A stretch of DNA of 64,000 nt, from NCBI GenBank assembly GCA_025094145.1, contig JALLLS010000022.1, positions 62,001 through 126,000 on the forward strand, read 5' to 3'. Positions 1 through 64,000 of this stretch are shown here, one piece after another. The notes beneath the pieces are model-generated. The model made no database searches and was not told where the DNA came from. It was given only the letters and a program-made list of their open reading frames with translations. The position numbers and the translations under genes were made by a program. The stretch comes from Spinellus fusiger. Its lineage: Eukaryota; Mucoromycota; Mucoromycetes; Mucorales; Phycomycetaceae. How positions within the stretch are numbered: position 1 is the first letter of the stretch; every line of letters starts with the position of its first letter.

Positions 1-3526
<3,526 letters not shown>

Positions 3527-4277
3527 TTTTAAGTTTTTAATTTTAATAATTACTCTCATCAACAATAAATAAGAAACAAGAAACAATCCTACTTGCCAGG
3601 AGCACATCACCATGACTCTTTATTTTATATGGGTCAACATGGGCCACCTCTGTTGCCATGGTGCTTTGTCCTACGTTACGCCAAAATTTACCTTTTTTTT
3701 TCTTCCCCTGAGAGGATGGGTCGTCAAGGGGATGCAGTAAGAACAGATCATCCGCTGTAGATCCTCTCCCCATCCGTCATGTGCAGCGCAACAGCAATTC
3801 ATTGGACAGTACATCAACTTTCTTTTTCTATACTACTATGGACTTGACTAAGAATTTCTCGGATTCTTCTTGTTACTGCTAATGTCAATGTTCATGCCCT
3901 TTGGACAGTTTATCAGCTTCCTCCACTGTCAATTCCCACGTGCCATGGACACAAACTTGGCGATCGATGGCTGCTAAGAATAACACAGCCTGGAGAAATA
4001 CAAAGAGTGTCTGTATTCTTCTCTTTCTCTTTTCCGCTCTCTTGTACTTTTATAAATTTGTTTATTTATAAGCCATTTGTCCTTACAGTCCTTTTTGTAC
4101 CTGCCCACCTTCATTTGCTCACTTTATATTTATATATATATTTATATATATATATATATTTATTTATTGTGTTGTGTGGTGTGTTGTATGTGTGTGTGTA
4201 GATATCTTTCAATTCCTTTTGCCTACATTCATTCTTTATTTCTCTTGTTGGGCTGGTCCATTTCCTCTTAGTATTGC
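3527..4277. other. Intergenic region between IDI1 and the Ser-rich gene
   Basis: AT-rich region with TA/TATT microsatellite at 4123-4170. On the minus strand, 3880-3990 has one exon-like segment preceded by a good polypyrimidine-CAG acceptor (codes for AVLFLAAIDRQVCVHGTW and onward to a stop). No upstream donor exon is visible, so it is not called as a gene. Confidence 0.5.
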
Positions 4278-5553
4278 ATGACAATGGCCATGGAAACAAA
4301 CGCCACATTACCACCATGGCTCTCTTTACCGCCATCTATTCTTCCTGGACAAAACTCCTTTTCAGACATTATTCAACAGTACGATACTCAAGTCCTGCTT
4401 CTACGTGGGGGAATAACACAGCTCGAGGCAAGTAGAAGATAGGAAAAGAGAAATAAAACACAAGTGAAAAAAGGGGCAAGGAAAAGAGAAGGAAGGAAGG
4501 AAGGAAGGAAGGAAGGAAGGAAAACAGGCAAAGGAAAGGCATGGGCAAAGACCCCAAAAGGAAATTTGACAAGAACGCGTCTCACTGTTTCTATTACAGG
4601 AAGACTCTTCTGTTTTGAGTGGCAATGGGGATGAAGCACATTCCAATGCAATGCCACAAGCACAGATGCAGCCACAAGCACAGACCCCTTCCAAGGATGT
4701 CTTGGAGACAAGTGCAAGGAAAGACACCCCACCTGGAGTGAAAAGTGCTACAAAAGTGCCCTTGTCCAGTTCAGGGGATTCGGCTGATTTGACAAAGCGG
4801 AGATCTGCTGGAAGTCTTTTGCGTAGATCCTCAGCGTATTTTAAGGCTAAGCTCGAGGGATTCAAGACACACACTGCTCCTCTTCCTAATGACATGGGTG
4901 CAGTTCCCGGAAGTGCGTCCAGGAGTGTGCCTGGAAGTGTGTCCAGAAGTGTGTCCAGGAGTGTGTCCAGGAGTGTGCTTGATCCTGTCTTTGGCAGTCC
5001 ACCTTTGGAAGCATCCACCTCCGTGACAGTCCCCAATGCCTCAGCACCCAACACTTCAAGACCAAGTACCTCCCACACCCACCACACCAATCCCACCCGC
5101 ACCCATCCCATCAACAACAAAAAGGGACGCTCCTTCTTCCATTCACTACCAAAGAAGAGCAAATCAAAACATGCTGACGTGCATGCTTTGTTCTCTTCCA
5201 CCTCTCTTCCTCCACCTTCTAAAATTGCAATTAATACGACCATCAGCTATCCTCAAGTGTCCTCAAGTGCACCTCCCACCTCCTACTATACAACCAATGT
5301 GCAGCCACCCATCATCACACAGTACCCACCCAAACCACTCAGATACTCTCCTGTGGAACCATTAGAAGACCCAGTGCTGAGGGGTCGTAGGCCTCTTCAC
5401 AGAATATCACTTCCTCTGCTACGTTCCTATCAGGACATCACAACAGGAAGTGGAGAGTCCCCCTCTGAGAAAGAACGGCGTTTTGGGCCTATTAAAAAAC
5501 AAGCCCGGCGTCTGACTCAATGGCTGATATGTCAACCTTCTAAGAAGACGTGA
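4278..5553 (+). CDS. Ser/Pro/Thr-rich protein of unknown function
   Basis: I do not recognise this protein. Exons are 4278-4427 and 4600-5553, giving 367 residues. The first exon (MTMAMETNATLPPWLSLPPS...) has the look of a conserved N-terminal motif (PPWLSLPPSILPGQ, then DIIQQYDTQVLLLRGGITQLE with helical periodicity). The second exon is mostly disordered, rich in Ser, Pro, Thr and basic residues. It has a short SRSV tandem repeat around residues 150-170, a KKGRSFFHSLPKKSKSK basic patch, and a basic C-terminus. The intron has a GC donor (GAG/GCAAGT) and contains a GGAA microsatellite at about 4491-4520. No membrane segment is seen. A signalling or cortical scaffold is possible, but this is only composition-based. 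Confidence 0.6.
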
Positions 5554-25865: not shown

Positions 25866-26457
25866 AGACCAGCGCCCTAGAAGAAAAGAAAGAGAAACGA
25901 GTGTGTATGTGTGTGTGTGTGTAATAGGTGTGGATGGAATAAAAGAGGGATTCTATTGGATTAGAATTACACACTGTACAGGGGTCGATGAAAGATATAT
26001 CCTCCCTCTCTTTTCTCATCACAGACTATTCCATTCTCCACAGTCCCGGGTAATAAGTGGACAGTGAACCCACCTTTTCTCTTATTGCCTGAGGTCACTT
26101 TGTAATCAAGCAATAATAATAATAATAAAAAGATGCTCCACTGTGATGTAAGACAAAGGCTTTGCTGCAAGGTACTACGCACTGTCTACTACGCACTGCT
26201 TCTTATAACAAGAATGCAGTTGATCAGTTAAAGAACAACTGTAAATCTTGTGTTATTCTATGCATCCTTTATTATGAACATCTTGGACGGATAGACATGC
26301 CTTTAAAAAGAATGAAATAGAGAATGAAATAGAGAATGAAAAATGAATGGGAGAATCCATGGGACAGAAGACTGTCTTTTCAGTTGCCAATGTAAAGAGA
26401 GTCACTAAAGGATGCTAGCCAGTCACACTGCCCTCCAAGGTGTGGGATCGCTGTTTA
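25866..26457. other. Intergenic region up to transposon copy 1
   Basis: AIM24 3' flank with GT and AAT microsatellites and a short GAATGAAATAGA tandem repeat near 26308-26340. No gene is seen. Confidence 0.6.
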
Positions 26458-27815
26458 CACACCTAAAGATCTTTAGGATATAAAAGGAAATAGTCAAACT
26501 ACAATTGTTTAAGAAATGACATCGATTTGAAAAGCAAAAATAAATTAAGATGTATTCATATTAGTTTTTAAATAAAAACTATGTAGATTTACCTGTAAAT
26601 ATCTGAATCCCGAAGGAAACCACCTTCGATGTGGTGATGTATAATATGAATACAGATATCTATTCTTTTCTACAGAATGGAGCTGGTGGGTGGCGACCCT
26701 TTAAACACTCTTCTGTGATTTTATAGATATTCTTTGATGCATTCACATCTCTGTTCCAAACAATTCTGCAACCTTGGCAAGCGTGGATACTGTTGAAATT
26801 TATGAATACCTCAGTGAGGATATTTGTGTTATAAGTATGGCAGATCTTGAGAACAAAAATAAGAATAACTGTTAGAGGAGCTTTTCATATTGGGTGAGAG
26901 GTCAATCCTGCTTACCCTTGATGTAAAGAACTCATCAACATCAACCACAAGAAGATCTCCACCCTTTTGTCTCTTTTTTCAATGATTGATATAAAATTAT
27001 TGCCAAGCCAACACGATGACCTTTAAACTTGGCAGCATCTTTTACCTTTATTCCTGTGCCATAAGCAATGACTGGCAGCTTGGTAGGATCATACTCCAAT
27101 CCTTTTAGGTGCCAATACCCCTTCTCACTAATAAAACAGTAAAAATAATTAGTTCGAGACGTATCAACGTACTCTATATGTATGTCGTATTACTCTTGCA
27201 CTGGCACCTTCTTCTTGCCTTTGCCTTTGTAACGGATTCATTGGGTTTATTATAGTAAAAGAATATACAATAGAAACTGACCAACATGTCAGACATAATA
27301 AACATATACTCACCATATCACAACTGTTGGTTTATATGCCAGACAAAGGCAAACAAGTTAAAGATGGGTTATGAAGAACAACAGACAGTGTGGTTGGCAG
27401 GTATTAATATCCGAACAGAAGAGAACAATACGAATTTTCACAAGTCATTTACTTAATCAGAACTACCAAAGTAATGCAGACTACAACAACATTTTAAAAT
27501 GAAAAGAATTACTTAAAGAACGGTTGCCTAGTTACCAGTTGTGATCAAATCGTGTGTTGTGTTCCTGTTCATGTACCCTCTTTGATTTCCCTAGACCAGC
27601 CTTTGTATCCAATACTCTATTTTGTTGTCCCTGCTAGAGACCAAACAACTACAGATGTATCTCTCTAGTTGTCCTGTTGATAACCACAGTGCCCTTTATT
27701 ACAGATACTTGCAAACCTTTGATTTTAAACACAGTTTCATAGAAAGCAAAATATTTTTGGACGTAAAAGGAATGATTGTGTCACTGATTAAAAGCCAGAA
27801 AAATATCCTGCTGTT
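26458..27815 (-). mobile_element. Degenerate Fanzor-carrying DNA transposon, copy 1
   Basis: About 1,358 bp, homologous along most of its length to the element at 32017-33072. The left end is TA/CACACCTAAAGATCTTT and the right end, read inward on the minus strand, is TA/AACAGCAGGATATTTTT. The right end is a diverged form of the near-perfect inverted repeat seen in copy 2, and each end is flanked by TA. The cargo is minus-strand sequence with the C-terminal signature of Fanzor/TnpB proteins (described separately). Relative to copy 2 it retains about 300 bp of extra internal sequence (roughly 27094-27395). No intact open frame and no DDE transposase are visible, so it is a fossil or a non-autonomous element. 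Confidence 0.8.
26720..27140 (-). pseudogene. Fanzor/TnpB-like nuclease remnant, copy 1
   Basis: Translating the minus strand gives, in order: YDPTKLPVIAYGTGIKVKD, AAKFKGHRVGLAIILYQSLK, then after a +1 frame offset GGDLLVVDVDEFFTSR. A 70-nt GTAAGC...CAAG intron (26915-26846) follows, then ICHTYNTNILTEVF, SIHACQGCRIVWNRDVNASK and NIYKITEECL. The DEF-x-TS segment, the paired Cys knuckles and WNRDVNASKN are the RuvC-II/zinc-ribbon/RuvC-III block of Fanzor and TnpB. The first knuckle reads CHTY, so its second Cys is lost. The shift between the KKE and GGD segments breaks the frame. The N-terminal part is not recognisable, but a basic KGKGKKKVP segment lies near 27215. It is non-functional as read. 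Confidence 0.82.
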
Positions 27816-28085
27816 TAGAAAGAGAATGAGAAAGAAATAGACTTGCTTTCTATTGGACAGAAGAACCATGGCATCTTTCATTCTTCCATCTCCCTCAGTG
27901 CTCATTAGCCAACAGAAATGAGTCATTGTGACTGCCACATCTGCCTGTCACATCTATAAAAATTTATGACCTTTGATTGGCCTCTCTCTCAAAAGATTTC
28001 TAGAATAAAATAAAAAAATAAAAAATAAAAAAAAACTATAAATAAGCCAGTTTAATGGCGGCCTATTTTTTTTTCTTTTTTCTTT
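27816..28085. promoter_or_regulatory. Spacer with possible RNase P RNA promoter
   Basis: AT-rich spacer between transposon copy 1 and the RNA gene. A TATAAATAA box at 28037-28045 precedes the P1 5' strand by about 45 bp, with a T-rich tract between them. This would suit a Pol III type 3-like or TATA-dependent promoter. Confidence 0.4.
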
Positions 28086-28686
28086 GTGTGGAGGGGGAAA
28101 GGTAGTAAGCTTACGTTTACGGGCAAACATACGATTGGACTTGTTCCAGGATTACATTACCCGTGGGAAGGTCTGAGGAAAACCCAAATGCTCTTACCGG
28201 GCAACTCGCAAAAGTGAGTGTGAGCAACCAGTGATAATATCTCTTGTGGCGCTGCTTTGGCCTATCTTGCCTCTCATCCATCCTCTTCAGTTCGTGTCTC
28301 TCTTACTGGTCGTTTGTTATTTGATCCCTGGTCAGCCCAGCTTCTTGTTGTGTACTGAGTTGGTCAGTCCCGCTCTTTGTTTAGCATTGAGTTGGTAGGG
28401 CCAGGGGCAGTAATAAACGATGGGGAAAAGGGGCTACTTGCTGAAGGGCCGGTGGGTAGAGAAAGTGGGTTCGAGTGGATAGACATAAGCTATTGAAACC
28501 GGCTTGCGGGTGGGAACGCTATGCAGTGCAATACGTAAGACTGGTGACATTGGGAGTGAGAGAGGAAAAATAAAAAAGAGAAGAGGGAGGAGATTTATTT
28601 CTTTCTGATTCTTTCTTTCTTTTCTTTCTCTCTTTTTTGACAGTAACTCAATTCAGACTACTCTTCTTCCTCTCCCCCTCCACACC
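28086..28686 (+). ncRNA. RPR1: Nuclear RNase P RNA (candidate)
   Basis: RNA subunit of the tRNA 5'-processing enzyme. Segment GGGAAGGTCTGAG at 28165-28177 and segment CAATTCAGACTACTC at 28649-28663 match, as I recall them, the conserved CR-I and CR-V regions of eukaryotic RNase P RNA, including human. They can pair to form helix P4. A TGGGAAC...AGTGCAATACG stretch at 28511-28535 resembles CR-IV. The whole unit is closed by a 17-bp P1-like helix: GTGTGGAGGGGGAAAGG (28086-28102) against 28669-28685, with one mismatch. No protein frame is conserved here. At about 600 nt it is long, partly through an intron-like insertion (28556-28643). RNase MRP RNA is the main alternative, but CR-V fits RNase P better. 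Confidence 0.85.
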
Positions 28687-31873: not shown

Positions 31874-32016
31874 GGCTCCTGTATTCTATTCTACAGAGAT
31901 CAATGGCATATGGCCTTGTTCTGCTGTGAATGTGACTGAAATGTGACTGAAATGTGACTGGGGTGGGGCTGGGGTGGGGCTGTGGAAAAGACAAGGGGAA
32001 GGTGCTCTCTTGCCTA

Positions 32017-33072
32017 CACACCAGGAGATCTTTAGGATATAAAAGGAAATAGTCAAACTACAATTGTTTAAGAAATGACATCGATTTGAAAAGCAAAAAT
32101 AAATTAAGATGTATTCATATTAGTTTTTAAATAAAAACTATGTAGATTTACCTGTAAATATCTGAATCCCGGAAAGAACTACCTTTGATATAGCAATATA
32201 TTATAATATGAATACAAATAAGAATAGATATTATTTTCTACAGAATGGAGCTGGTCTGTAGTGACCCTTTAAACACTCTTCTGTGATTTTATAGATATTC
32301 TTTGATACATTCACATCTCTGTTCTAAACAATTCCGCAACCTTGGCAAGCGTGGATACTGTTGAAATTCATGAATACCTCAGTGAGGCTGTCTGTGTTGC
32401 AAGTATGGCATATCTTGAGAACAACAAAATAAAACAGAGTAACTGTTAGAAGAGCTTTTTATATTGGGTGAGAGGTCAATCCTGCTTACCCTTGATGTAA
32501 AGAACTCATCAACATCAACCACAAGAAGATCTCCACCCTTTTGTCTCTTTTTTCAATGATTGATATAAAACTCTCGTCAAACCAACACAATGACCTTTAA
32601 ATTTGGCAGCATCCTTTCCTTTATTCCTGTGCCATAAGCAATGACTGGCAGCTTGGCAGGTATTTATATCCAAGCAGCAGAGATCAAAACGAAATTTCAC
32701 AAGTCATTTGCTTAATCAGAACTACCAAAGTAATGCAGACTACAACAACATTTTAAAATGAAAAAATTCCTTAAAGAACAGTTGCCTAGTTACCCGTTGT
32801 GATCAAATTGTATACTGTATCCCTGTTCATGTACCCTCTTTGATTTCCCTAGACTGGTCTTTGTAATAATACTCCATTTCGTTGTCCCCACTAGAGACCC
32901 AAATATCTATACATTTATCTCTCTAGTGGTCCTGTTGATAACCACAGTGCCCTTTATTACAGATACTTGCAAACCTTTGATTTTAAACACAGTTTCATAG
33001 AAAGCAAAATATTTTTGGACGTAAAAGGAAGGAGATATCCCCGCCTAAAAGCCAGAAAAATCTCCTGGTGTG
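32017..33072 (-). mobile_element. Degenerate Fanzor-carrying DNA transposon, copy 2
   Basis: 1,056 bp element with near-perfect terminal inverted repeats: CACACCAGGAGATCTTT at the left (32017-32033) and, on the other strand, CACACCAGGAGATTTTT at the right (33056-33072), 16 of 17 matching. Each end is flanked by TA (32015-32016 and 33073-33074), as in Tc1/mariner target duplications. It is collinear with copy 1 but lacks about 300 bp internally; the junction is at GGCAGCTTGG/CAGGTA near 32650-32662. The inverted repeats are better preserved than in copy 1, suggesting later mobilisation or less decay. It lies between the weak membrane-protein candidate and STYX. Confidence 0.85.
32285..32665 (-). 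pseudogene. Fanzor/TnpB-like nuclease remnant, copy 2
   Basis: The minus strand encodes VGLTRVLYQSLKKETKG, then in a shifted frame GGDLLVVDVDEFFTSR. After an intron-like gap come ICHTCNTDSLTEVFMNF, SIHACQGC and NRDVNVSKN. Here both Cys pairs of the zinc ribbon are intact (CHTC and CQGC), unlike copy 1. The Trp of WNRDVN is a TAG stop (32324-32326) instead. The frame offset between KKETKG and GGDLL is identical to that in copy 1. The region upstream of PVIAYG is deleted. Confidence 0.8.
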
Positions 33073-33773
33073 TAGACAGACACGTCACTTTATGCCTCCT
33101 CTCTTGACATGTCTCTCTTTTCAAAGCAGAGAGGGAGCCAAAAGAAAGGCTTCTATTCTTGAAAGTGCGCTCGTATTGGCTCCCAGATGATAGAGCCACT
33201 GCAGTGTTTCCATCTGAATGGAAGACAACACTTGCTATAAAGGGGAAAATGTCCTACAAGGTGTCCTACAAGGCACAGTCCATGGCATAGAGTAGGGTTG
33301 GCTGTTGTGGTGGCTATAACCATGGACAAAAGGACTCTCCAATAGATGGATAGAAAGAATGTTACCGGTTATACTGCTGTCACATCAATAGAAGAGAGAA
33401 TAGAAGAGAGAGATGGAATAAAAGAAAGGGTTCTGTGCTTCATCTGTCTGCCTTGTAACGGTATTCTTACTGACTCTTTTACAGGTAGACTGCTCTGTCT
33501 TTCTACCAGTAATAATAGCACTACTACTACTACTACTAGGAATAATAGAATAGCACTCGTAGTAATAGCACCACTACTACTAGGAATAATAGAATAACAC
33601 CACTCATCATACTATTACATTGGACTCTTTATCAATAAACACTGTAAACATCACACACTATCAAATCACAGCAATGGGCATGGAGGTGTAGAACAGACAC
33701 AGCTTATGAGACACAAAGTAAGGACAATACACACACAGCCAAGCCTTCTATTATTAGAGCACCAAATCAAATC
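33073..33773. other. Spacer between transposon copy 2 and STYX
   Basis: No gene seen. It contains ACT trinucleotide runs at 33519-33590 and short GAATAGAAGAGAGA repeats near 33390-33420. Confidence 0.5.
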
Positions 33774-61796: not shown

Positions 61797-63904
61797 AATG
61801 AATACCAGAGAGTGTGGTGGAGTGGAAGGGTGTTTTTAGCTGGGAAGAACGGCACAAACAAAGTCACTGAGTCTTTTTCTCTGTCTTTTGTGGTGTGCAG
61901 GTGTAGAATGTAGATAAGTGTAAGAGAGGTGTAAGATAACCTATATAAATATAAATATAAATAAATATAAATATATAGGTGGGGTTAGCACAGCCCAAGT
62001 GGATGTAGTGACAAGAAGAGGAGCTTACCGGGGCGCACTGAGCATAGTCTTTGATATCAGGCGTGACGTCGTTATGGAGAGATACTTTTTGTCTCTCTTT
62101 TTTGTCTCTCTTTTGTCTCTTTCTTTACACACCCAAGGATTTTTCTGGCCTTTAAGCGGTGATATATCTTTCCTTTTATGTCATAATATAAAATTCCCTT
62201 TTATGGATACCTCAATATCAAATTGTATTATCAATGGAATATATTGTTGATGAATAAAATTGTTGATAGATACAATTGTTTATTATAATAGTATAGCTAA
62301 TAATATACTATTACTATAGCTACTGCCCAAGTATATTCCCTCATAGCAATAGAATCCACACCCTAAAAGCCTTGTACTTTGTTCTTGAAAGATAGATAAC
62401 TATGATCAGGAGTATACCCTAGACATTATTGATAGTATAGAAGACCACCTGAGACTGACTTGAAAGGAGTCTTTAGTTGCCTAATAATAATACAATAAGT
62501 GTCTTGTGGAATACAATGAGCTCAAGCCCAGATGATGACACTGCTTACCTTTTTATCACTAGAATAGTCCTTGATAGTATCTATCACTTCCTTCTATTGT
62601 TTCTCTTTGTCAATAATGGCACATTACCTTGCTCAGTTATGCTCATCTTGACAAGTACTTGGGTGTTAAGTTGTATATGCAGTGTGGGAAATAACAAGAG
62701 GACGGGATTGTCAAAACAAATAATAGTTTCTCTCTCTCTATTCTGATAGTGTATACACTAGCCTCCACTCATAAAATTCTTAAGTCAAATTCACAAGTCA
62801 AACAATTCACACTCTATTTGCCTTGAGCCTAAAGTCCAGTATTAGAACAGTACCTTGTTATCAGTAATTACTATTGTTAACACCAGTTACAATGAGACTG
62901 TTGAAGCAATTATGAATATTGAGTCAATGAATGGCTATAATATTCTTAATGTAAGTGAATTTGGCTCTATTTTATGGACAATGACCACTAGAGTTGATTC
63001 CGTGTGAGTCCTACAATAAATCTTTCTTAAACAGTGTCATATTGCAAATACTGTGGGCTTATGGATAGCACATGTTAAACATTAAATGCAGTGATTGAGT
63101 TGTAATGTCAAGTTCACTTCTCCCTTTTATCCAACTTTATAGTGTTTAATTGGACAGTCAATAGCCAATGCTAAAACAGACAGACAGTGAAAATGTTCTT
63201 TTTAAACACATTAGCCCATAAGAAAAATAGTGTGATTATATTGTTCATGTATTTCCCTTTATATCCCAAAAATTTTCTGTTGCTATGAGACAGGAGACAC
63301 ACAGGACCTTGTAAGGCTGGCTACTCACACAGGAATTGACAGAGAAGAGAAGGGTATGGAGTGACAGAAGGCAAACTAGTGGCTGTAATAATAATGGCAC
63401 CAATGCGGAGATAAAGAAAGAAAAGTCGAGAACAAGAAACAGTCAGCTGTCCAAGTCCTTAAAGCCTATCTTGTTTATACTCTAGGAATCTGCTCAGATC
63501 AAAGTCTATTTTATTAAAAATGTAGACAATTACACTTTTTATGTTAGTTTGGCATTTCTTTTACTATGAATTTGATTATGAATTTGACTATTTTGCTATT
63601 CTCAATTAATAGCTATGGCTTTCATAGAACATCCAAGCAGACTGGGAAAGGTGGCTGCCCTATCCTACAGTGTGTATAATCTTGGTCCTGTATTTCAAGG
63701 CCATAGAATTCAATAAAGTGATTTTATTGTAAATAAAGTTTCTCTCTTCCCTTGAAACATACATAGGACAAGAGAATGAGATCCATCTCTAAATTTACAG
63801 AGATGTTATTATCGTATAGCTTTGATCCTTATAGCTTAAAAATATATAAAAGTAGCCTCAAGATCTATACTATGTAACTTTGTAAAATATATCTTTTATT
63901 CTGC
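61797..63904. other. Gene-free region upstream of the RalGAP gene
   Basis: A short GC-richer segment near 62000-62070 ends, on the minus strand, in a GTAAGC donor-like site, which could be a 5' untranslated exon of the RalGAP gene. The rest is AT-rich with no supported gene. Confidence 0.5.
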
Positions 63905-64000
63905 AATAAAGGGCACTGTGGTTATCAACAGGACAACTAGAGAGATACATCTGTAGTTGTTTGGTCTCTAGCAGGGACAACAAAATAGAGTATTGGATAC
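63905..64000 (+). mobile_element. Third copy (partial) of the Fanzor-carrying element, cut by the window edge
   Basis: The reverse complement of this stretch matches copy 1 at about 27606-27700 (GTATCCAATACTCTATTTTG and onward to GATAACCACAGTGCCCTTTA) almost base for base. It is therefore inverted relative to copies 1 and 2. Similarity stops at about 63905 without a recognisable inverted-repeat end, so this end is truncated or diverged. The rest of the copy lies beyond the right edge. Confidence 0.75.

Follow-up and report, generated by a model that had tools for sequence, protein, structure and literature searches.

Fanzor1 remains in a probable internal-deletion derivative of a TIR element from Spinellus fusiger, and its many relatives

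Structure and coding remains of copy 1

The window (i.e., the whole stretch of 64,000 nucleotides that was analysed, from the mucoralean fungus Spinellus fusiger) contained two related elements with terminal inverted repeats (TIRs), copies 1 and 2, and the left part of a third, copy 3 (Table 1). Copy 1 had been described in a first-pass annotation as TA-flanked, and its ends, TA included, lay no more than 2 bp from the coordinates given then. The right end read TACACACCTAAAGATCTTTAGGATATAAAA, and the terminal ~37 bp on this side were conserved even among elements with an unrelated interior. A nuclear RNase P RNA gene (RF00009, 89.6 bits; 28098-28673, plus strand) started 281 bp past the left end.

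Table 1. Features of the three elements, in window coordinates
Feature	Position	Strand	Remarks
Complete copy 1 including both TA, 1362 bp	26456..27817	-	Ends of fetched copies stop there
Right end (gene 3' end): TIR TACACACCTAAAGATCTTT + GGATATAAAA block	26456..26492	+	
Last exon: zinc ribbon (TNB) CHTY..CQGC + RuvC-III WNRDVNASKN	26660..26845	-	Stop 26660-26662
Putative intron GTAAGC...CAAG, 70 nt, GT-AG	26846..26915	-	Predicted from sequence
Exon piece KKRQKGGDLLVVDVDEFFTSR	26916..26978	-	
DEFFTSR	26916-26936	-	
RuvC-II-side piece EYDPTKLPVIAYGTG...SLKKETK	26965..27096	-	Frame differs by one base from that of the DEFFTSR piece
Deletion junction	27227..27230	.	~2.1 kb missing relative to L052: Fanzor N-terminus and RuvC-I
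Left end TIR TAAACAGCAGGATATTTTT	27799..27817	-	Worn: 3 mismatches to TACACACCNNNAGATTTTT
TC-TA at left end of copy 1	27816..27819	-	Predicted TAM site of insertion
Copy 2, 1060 bp	32015..33074	-	Has lost more of its interior; left end with TC-TA
Copy 3, left part inside window	62126..64000	+	Total length 3031 bp, ending at 65156 when the window numbering is carried on (C113:127156)

The minus-strand series noticed at the outset (DEFFTSR, an intron, a paired cysteine block and WNRDVNASKN) was present in its entirety; the part after the intron formed one open frame that started at 26845 and closed with the stop codon. Read in the direction of the gene, the coding remains comprised EYDPTKLPVIAYGTG..SLKKETK, a frame shift of one base, DLLVVDVDEFFTSR, the intron, and ICHTYNTN..CQGCRIVWNRDVNASKNIYKITEECLKGRHPP. 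Removal of the putative 70-nt intron would produce TSR-ICHTY, which parallels TSK-ICNEC in a protein from Rhizopus delemar (P0016); the sequence DEFNTSKICNEC of P0016 agrees with a Spinellus intron between TSR and ICHTC. The first knuckle of copy 1 was CHTY, as first read. Among 46 distinct aligned stretches, CHTYNTN occurred in 21, a tyrosine at that place in 28, CxxC in 17 and a gap in one; CHTY is thus common across the family and, being shared by many copies, was probably inherited. The frame break between the RuvC-II-side and DEFFTSR pieces was present in 31 of these 46 stretches, and the other 15 were in frame.

The last exon matched PF07282 with E = 1.9e-5 and 25.2 bits, i.e., just under the cut-off of 26.3 bits, while two sister copies, L043 (33.3 bits) and L042 (30.1 bits), passed it. 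It was 38% identical to P0016 over 64 columns. The genome had at least 150 matches to PF07282 with E no higher than 0.001, from the scoring of 150 among 457 first-look candidates. The marginal score of copy 1 by itself would suit an alternative in which the block belongs to some unrelated zinc-ribbon family. However, the exon gave no other Pfam family at E up to 1, the homology reaches past the ribbon, and a profile match to a characterised Fanzor1 (see below) contradicts this reading, which we regard as extremely improbable.

Homology to Fanzor1, a shared deletion and the size of the family

Direct searches of the PDB returned only weak matches (best E = 0.041 for copy 1 and 0.012 for L043). 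Homology ran through intermediate proteins. Of 20 candidates with shared words and a suitable length, two matched the L043 stretch with E no higher than 0.001, and both (P0001 and P0002) were partial proteins of Spinellus fusiger itself. The RuvC-I segment of a longer relative, L052, was 50% identical to P0003 of Rhizopus microsporus (E = 7.7e-32), the sole one of 47 candidate proteins to reach E = 0.001 or lower. P0003 in turn matched P0012 of Mucor and P0016. The characterised SpuFz1 (8gkh) matched P0012 (E = 4.1e-7), P0016 (E = 1.6e-5) and profile A2 (E = 3.3e-13), whose 11 rows include three translated stretches of the Spinellus family; P0003 alone did not match SpuFz1 significantly (E = 0.3). 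The original assignment of a Fanzor-type C-terminus was thereby upheld, through PF07282 and this chain to SpuFz1, and narrowed to Fanzor1; the rival outcome named with it, a better fit to another zinc-ribbon family, was not borne out.

A Fanzor1 motif has been given as [TS]-[TS]-X-X-[C4 zinc finger]-X(5,50)-RD (available text of PMC3627910). This is found at the level of the family, as TSR-ICHTC..CQSCGIVWN-RD in copies such as L043, provided that the intron is spliced; copy 1 departs from the C4 part because its knuckle is CHTY. Fanzor1 is further expected to have a RuvC-I aspartate 125-275 residues upstream. Again, this is seen in the family only, as GVDLGRKH in L052, L084 and P0001, at an estimated spacing of ~200 residues that allows for putative introns; the segment is deleted from copy 1.

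The extent of the deletion was evident from L052 (C164), a relative of 3435 bp from TIR to TIR, which has RuvC-I CGVDLGRKHIFAA as well as the C-terminus and an N-terminal piece. Copy 1 corresponds to positions 1182-1902 of L052 joined to 4017-4616, the two matches overlapping by 4 bp. Copy 3, which was 97% identical to copy 1 over 1.26 kb and has interior sequence in common with elements without Fanzor, had the same junction, as did L040. The best eight of 150 listed TNB loci (L001-L008, some of them near-identical pairs) aligned with copy 1 unbroken across the junction, and so did 29 others (L010-L038), a biased sample in that they were fetched by similarity to copy 1. Since the copies read share the junction, and 31 of 46 stretches are out of frame alike, the sequences indicate that an already broken founder multiplied. 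Minimal forms also exist: L053 (284 bp) and L054 (281 bp) consist of both ends plus ~100 bp from the right-end side, and their left ends show TC-TA.

Copy 1 has the inverted repeats of a Fanzor locus and the conserved right-end region, and lacks a complete Fanzor gene; in these respects it is a 'ghost' in the sense used in the available text of PMC10432273. The initial description of a small TIR transposon with a decayed Fanzor was correct regarding both the TIRs and the decay, and is refined here to a ghost produced by internal deletion, rather than a whole cargo gene rotted in place. Copy 1 alone is a fossil, and can no longer be a source of nuclease.

The ends of the family were very numerous in the 38 Mb genome. 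A right-end pattern allowing up to two mismatches gave 1161 matches, some of which belong to elements (L056 and L057 among others) with an interior unrelated to the Fanzor tail, and a left-end pattern allowing up to three mismatches gave 785; the reversed control gave 0 in either case. Some pattern matches are non-independent, given duplicated assembly loci. Several copies formed equal-score pairs in opposite orientation, ~1-50 kb apart (C133:233397/234544, C172:96007/97923/109277/111193, C112:45603/61092, C131:224921/235993 and others); such pairs are large inverted duplications or else artefacts of the assembly.

The RuvC-I segment produced 41 matches, all 49 candidates having been scored, and these were grouped into 33 loci; the first residues were reached in 12 of the 33, and some matches were short or fell to 28% identity. 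Right ends thus outnumbered RuvC-I-segment loci by about 35 to 1. The search for intact copies with the same TIRs, as first proposed, yielded many sister copies and no intact Fanzor gene among the nine long copies read from the 33 loci: each had stops or missing parts relative to P0003. Introns may account for some of these stops, which recurred at the same place or, in L088, were close to the probable end of an exon.

Transposase relative, left-end signature and right-end structure

A candidate mobiliser was provided by L081 (C114): between its right-type end (at 197) and its left end (at 3197) lay a DDE_3 protein (E = 4.2e-24), its gene broken by at least one stop. The left-end side of the Fanzor-bearing L040 matched L081 over 757 columns at 80%. 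L052 matched transposase loci at the ends only. L081 was the one element found to combine DDE_3 with the family ends, and, judged by these similarities, this Tc1/mariner-type element is likely to be the transposase relative of the family. The best DDE_3 loci, L073-L080, had been taken for the mobiliser since the transposase of L073 sits between family ends; this was rejected when their boundaries revealed a different mariner, bounded by a TIR of its own (TACACCTTTTTCGGAAAG...). Among these eight loci, all six whose ends were read bore the TIR of that other family on at least one side. This separate Tc1/mariner family (TIR TACACCTTTTTCGGAAAGTATTCGCACAACC, ~100-bp ends, TA) was nested inside family elements at L073, L074 and L078; its copy at L080 had a 492-aa open frame with DDE_3.

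TA was present at both ends of the copies, with few worn exceptions, which is consistent with TA target duplication; no empty insertion site was found.

The two ends differed in the bases preceding TA. Among distinct flanks, TC preceded TA at 29 of 48 left ends against 8 of 57 right ends (Fisher, p = 1.3e-6), and C at 39 of 48 and 24 of 57 respectively. The background frequency of TC was 7.8%, from 8455 TA counted on the two strands of the window, the three elements themselves included. Within 34 paired elements the discordant counts for TC were 18 (left) to 2 (right) (p = 4e-4). Pairs with a Fanzor segment had TC at 18 of 27 left and 4 of 27 right ends; for pairs without it the values were 3 of 7 and 1 of 7, too few to decide, and 11 further windows fetched for such pairs provided none. 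The first 100 exact matches of each pattern showed TC at 43 left and 8 right ends, and C alone at 75 and 49 (the cut at 100 was made by eye, as were the counts of 49 and of eight TC at right ends, and these were recounted). Genome-wide, 184 exact right ends had C, 51 of them TC, and 149 exact left ends had C; 120 left ends had TC under a pattern one base shorter, a figure not directly comparable with the 149. Copies 1 and 2 had TC-TA at the left end, while copy 3 had TT-TA. L081 and L082, which are each bordered by a left end on either side, were considered as a counter-test to the TAM prediction given below and rejected, since a right-type end lies between and each locus reads as one element nested in another's left end. 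Both insertions were apparently at about the same distance from the tip of the outer element, 135 bp (L081 62-197) and 128 bp (L082 1119-1247).

In Spizellomyces punctatus, CA is reported to be conserved upstream of the left repeat and the TAM of SpuFz1 is CATA (PMC10432273, text available). In PMC11423790, one sentence names the two motifs CATA and TTAA so that CATA would fall to GtFz1 and TTAA to SpuFz1, but a later passage of the available text assigns TTAA to GtFz1. Because TC is enriched at left ends and not at right ends, in parallel to the addition of CA and TA to give CATA, the TAM of the Spinellus Fanzor is predicted to be 5'-TCTA. The asymmetry could instead be a target preference of the transposase.

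By analogy with known elements, the right end would be the site of the 3' part of a guide RNA. Folding this region gave no stretch of eight that was significantly more stable than shuffled sequences (z = +1.17 to -1.11), and none of six consensus pairs had changed on both sides. A predicted hairpin, UAUAU-CC...GG-u-GUGUA (longest in copy 1, L005 and L014), was discarded, being neither significant nor supported by covariation.

Origin of the family and comparison with known systems

We are fairly confident that copy 1 arose by internal deletion from a Fanzor1-carrying TIR element of Spinellus fusiger that inserts at TA, that it is non-autonomous and would have been moved in trans, and that the Fanzor of the family, when intact, would have cut with a guide RNA at TCTA. 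Under this interpretation, a Tc1/mariner-type transposase from elements with the same ends would have mobilised the copies in trans. Transcription through the right end would have supplied an intact Fanzor with its guide RNA, the flank providing the guide; the nuclease would have cut the corresponding empty site beside the TCTA motif, and repair from the filled copy would then have restored the element.

A simpler account treats the Fanzor tail as a meaningless passenger of ordinary mariner-type MITEs, and the left-end TC as the outcome of transposase site choice at unequal ends. The single deletion of the fetched copies, with one frame break in 31 of 46 stretches, means that they spread without making protein; the right-end fold was not significant; and the preference of right ends for C before TA (49 of 100, against a background of 21.5%) suggests some preference by the transposase. 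Yet TC occupies the side and register of the known SpuFz1 TAM, where CA lies upstream of a TA-flanked left repeat (PMC10432273, available text), and right-end TC was at or near background (8 of 100 and 8 of 57, against 7.8%). On balance this account is a serious contender that we hold to fall a little short of probable.

Alternatively, the ghosts could be a working guide library, with Fanzor from rarer full-length copies using more than 1000 right-end RNAs in trans. The 35 to 1 excess of right ends over RuvC-I-segment loci would accommodate this, and ghost RNAs of S. punctatus do function with SpuFz1 in human cells (PMC10432273, available text). Against it, the nine long copies read of the 33 loci all had stops or missing parts, which is not decisive where some stops may be introns; we think such a library unlikely. 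Equally doubtful is a bolder reading, whereby over 1000 right ends could give guide RNAs, each targeting its own empty site for a TCTA-reading Fanzor, and the nuclease, in addition to the transposase, would explain the growth of the family. If true, the nuclease would help to explain a family that has outgrown every Fanzor family count in the literature compared, as far as its available text extends.

For the question of what Fanzor does for its host transposon, this family is an unusual sample: it comes from a single fungus, with a common deletion in the copies read, more than 1000 right ends, a candidate transposase relative and a TAM predicted from insertion sites alone, ahead of biochemistry. 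Should a TAM screen return TCTA, insertion-site asymmetry would be a cheap, genome-based means of reading TAMs; should it not, the asymmetry has another source, such as the transposase.

Gutted 'ghost' Fanzor elements have been described in Spizellomyces (PMC10432273), as have both Fanzor1-only TA elements and Fanzor1 with mariner transposase (PMC3627910); therefore, this kind of element is already known. The open literature searched, in its available main text, contained no report of the Spinellus family, its size, its left-end TCTA signature or its likely transposase relative. Fanzor elements are said there to reach 'up to hundreds of copies' (PMC10711439), and the Spinellus family is notable for scale.

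The TnpB proteins of IS200/IS605 and IS607 share the TNB zinc ribbon and RuvC-III signature, with weak NCBIfam matches (E = 7.1e-4 to 0.017); these score far below the cut-offs, however, and the Spinellus sequence is a TIR element with an intron, in a eukaryote. ROr-4, PBl-3 and MCi-4 also represent Fanzor1 in Mucorales, but in the available text of PMC3627910 they are MuDR-type with 9-bp duplications, whereas the Spinellus family has TA and a mariner-type relative. Closer are the Fanzor1-bearing Tc/mariner elements PGv-1, PUl-1 and PUl-4, which, in the same text, have TA flanks, a mariner-type transposase in elements with matching ends, and Fanzor-only members beside transposase-bearing ones. 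They differ in that the Spinellus loci read include no element with intact transposase and Fanzor together, and the Spinellus composites have just the flanks of the transposase gene in common. SPu-1 of Spizellomyces punctatus, the source of SpuFz1, resembles the Spinellus family in several ways: Fanzor1 is the sole gene seen in the longest members, the elements have TIRs and are bordered by TA on either side, short copies lacking the gene are numerous, and further conserved bases lie outside the left repeat (CA in SPu-1, TC in Spinellus). Its TIR sequence is different; the Spinellus gene is intron-bearing, its short copies often retain the Fanzor C-terminus and its guide RNA is inferred only, and the 42 Fanzor loci and 134 ghosts of SPu-1 stand against 1161 right ends in Spinellus.
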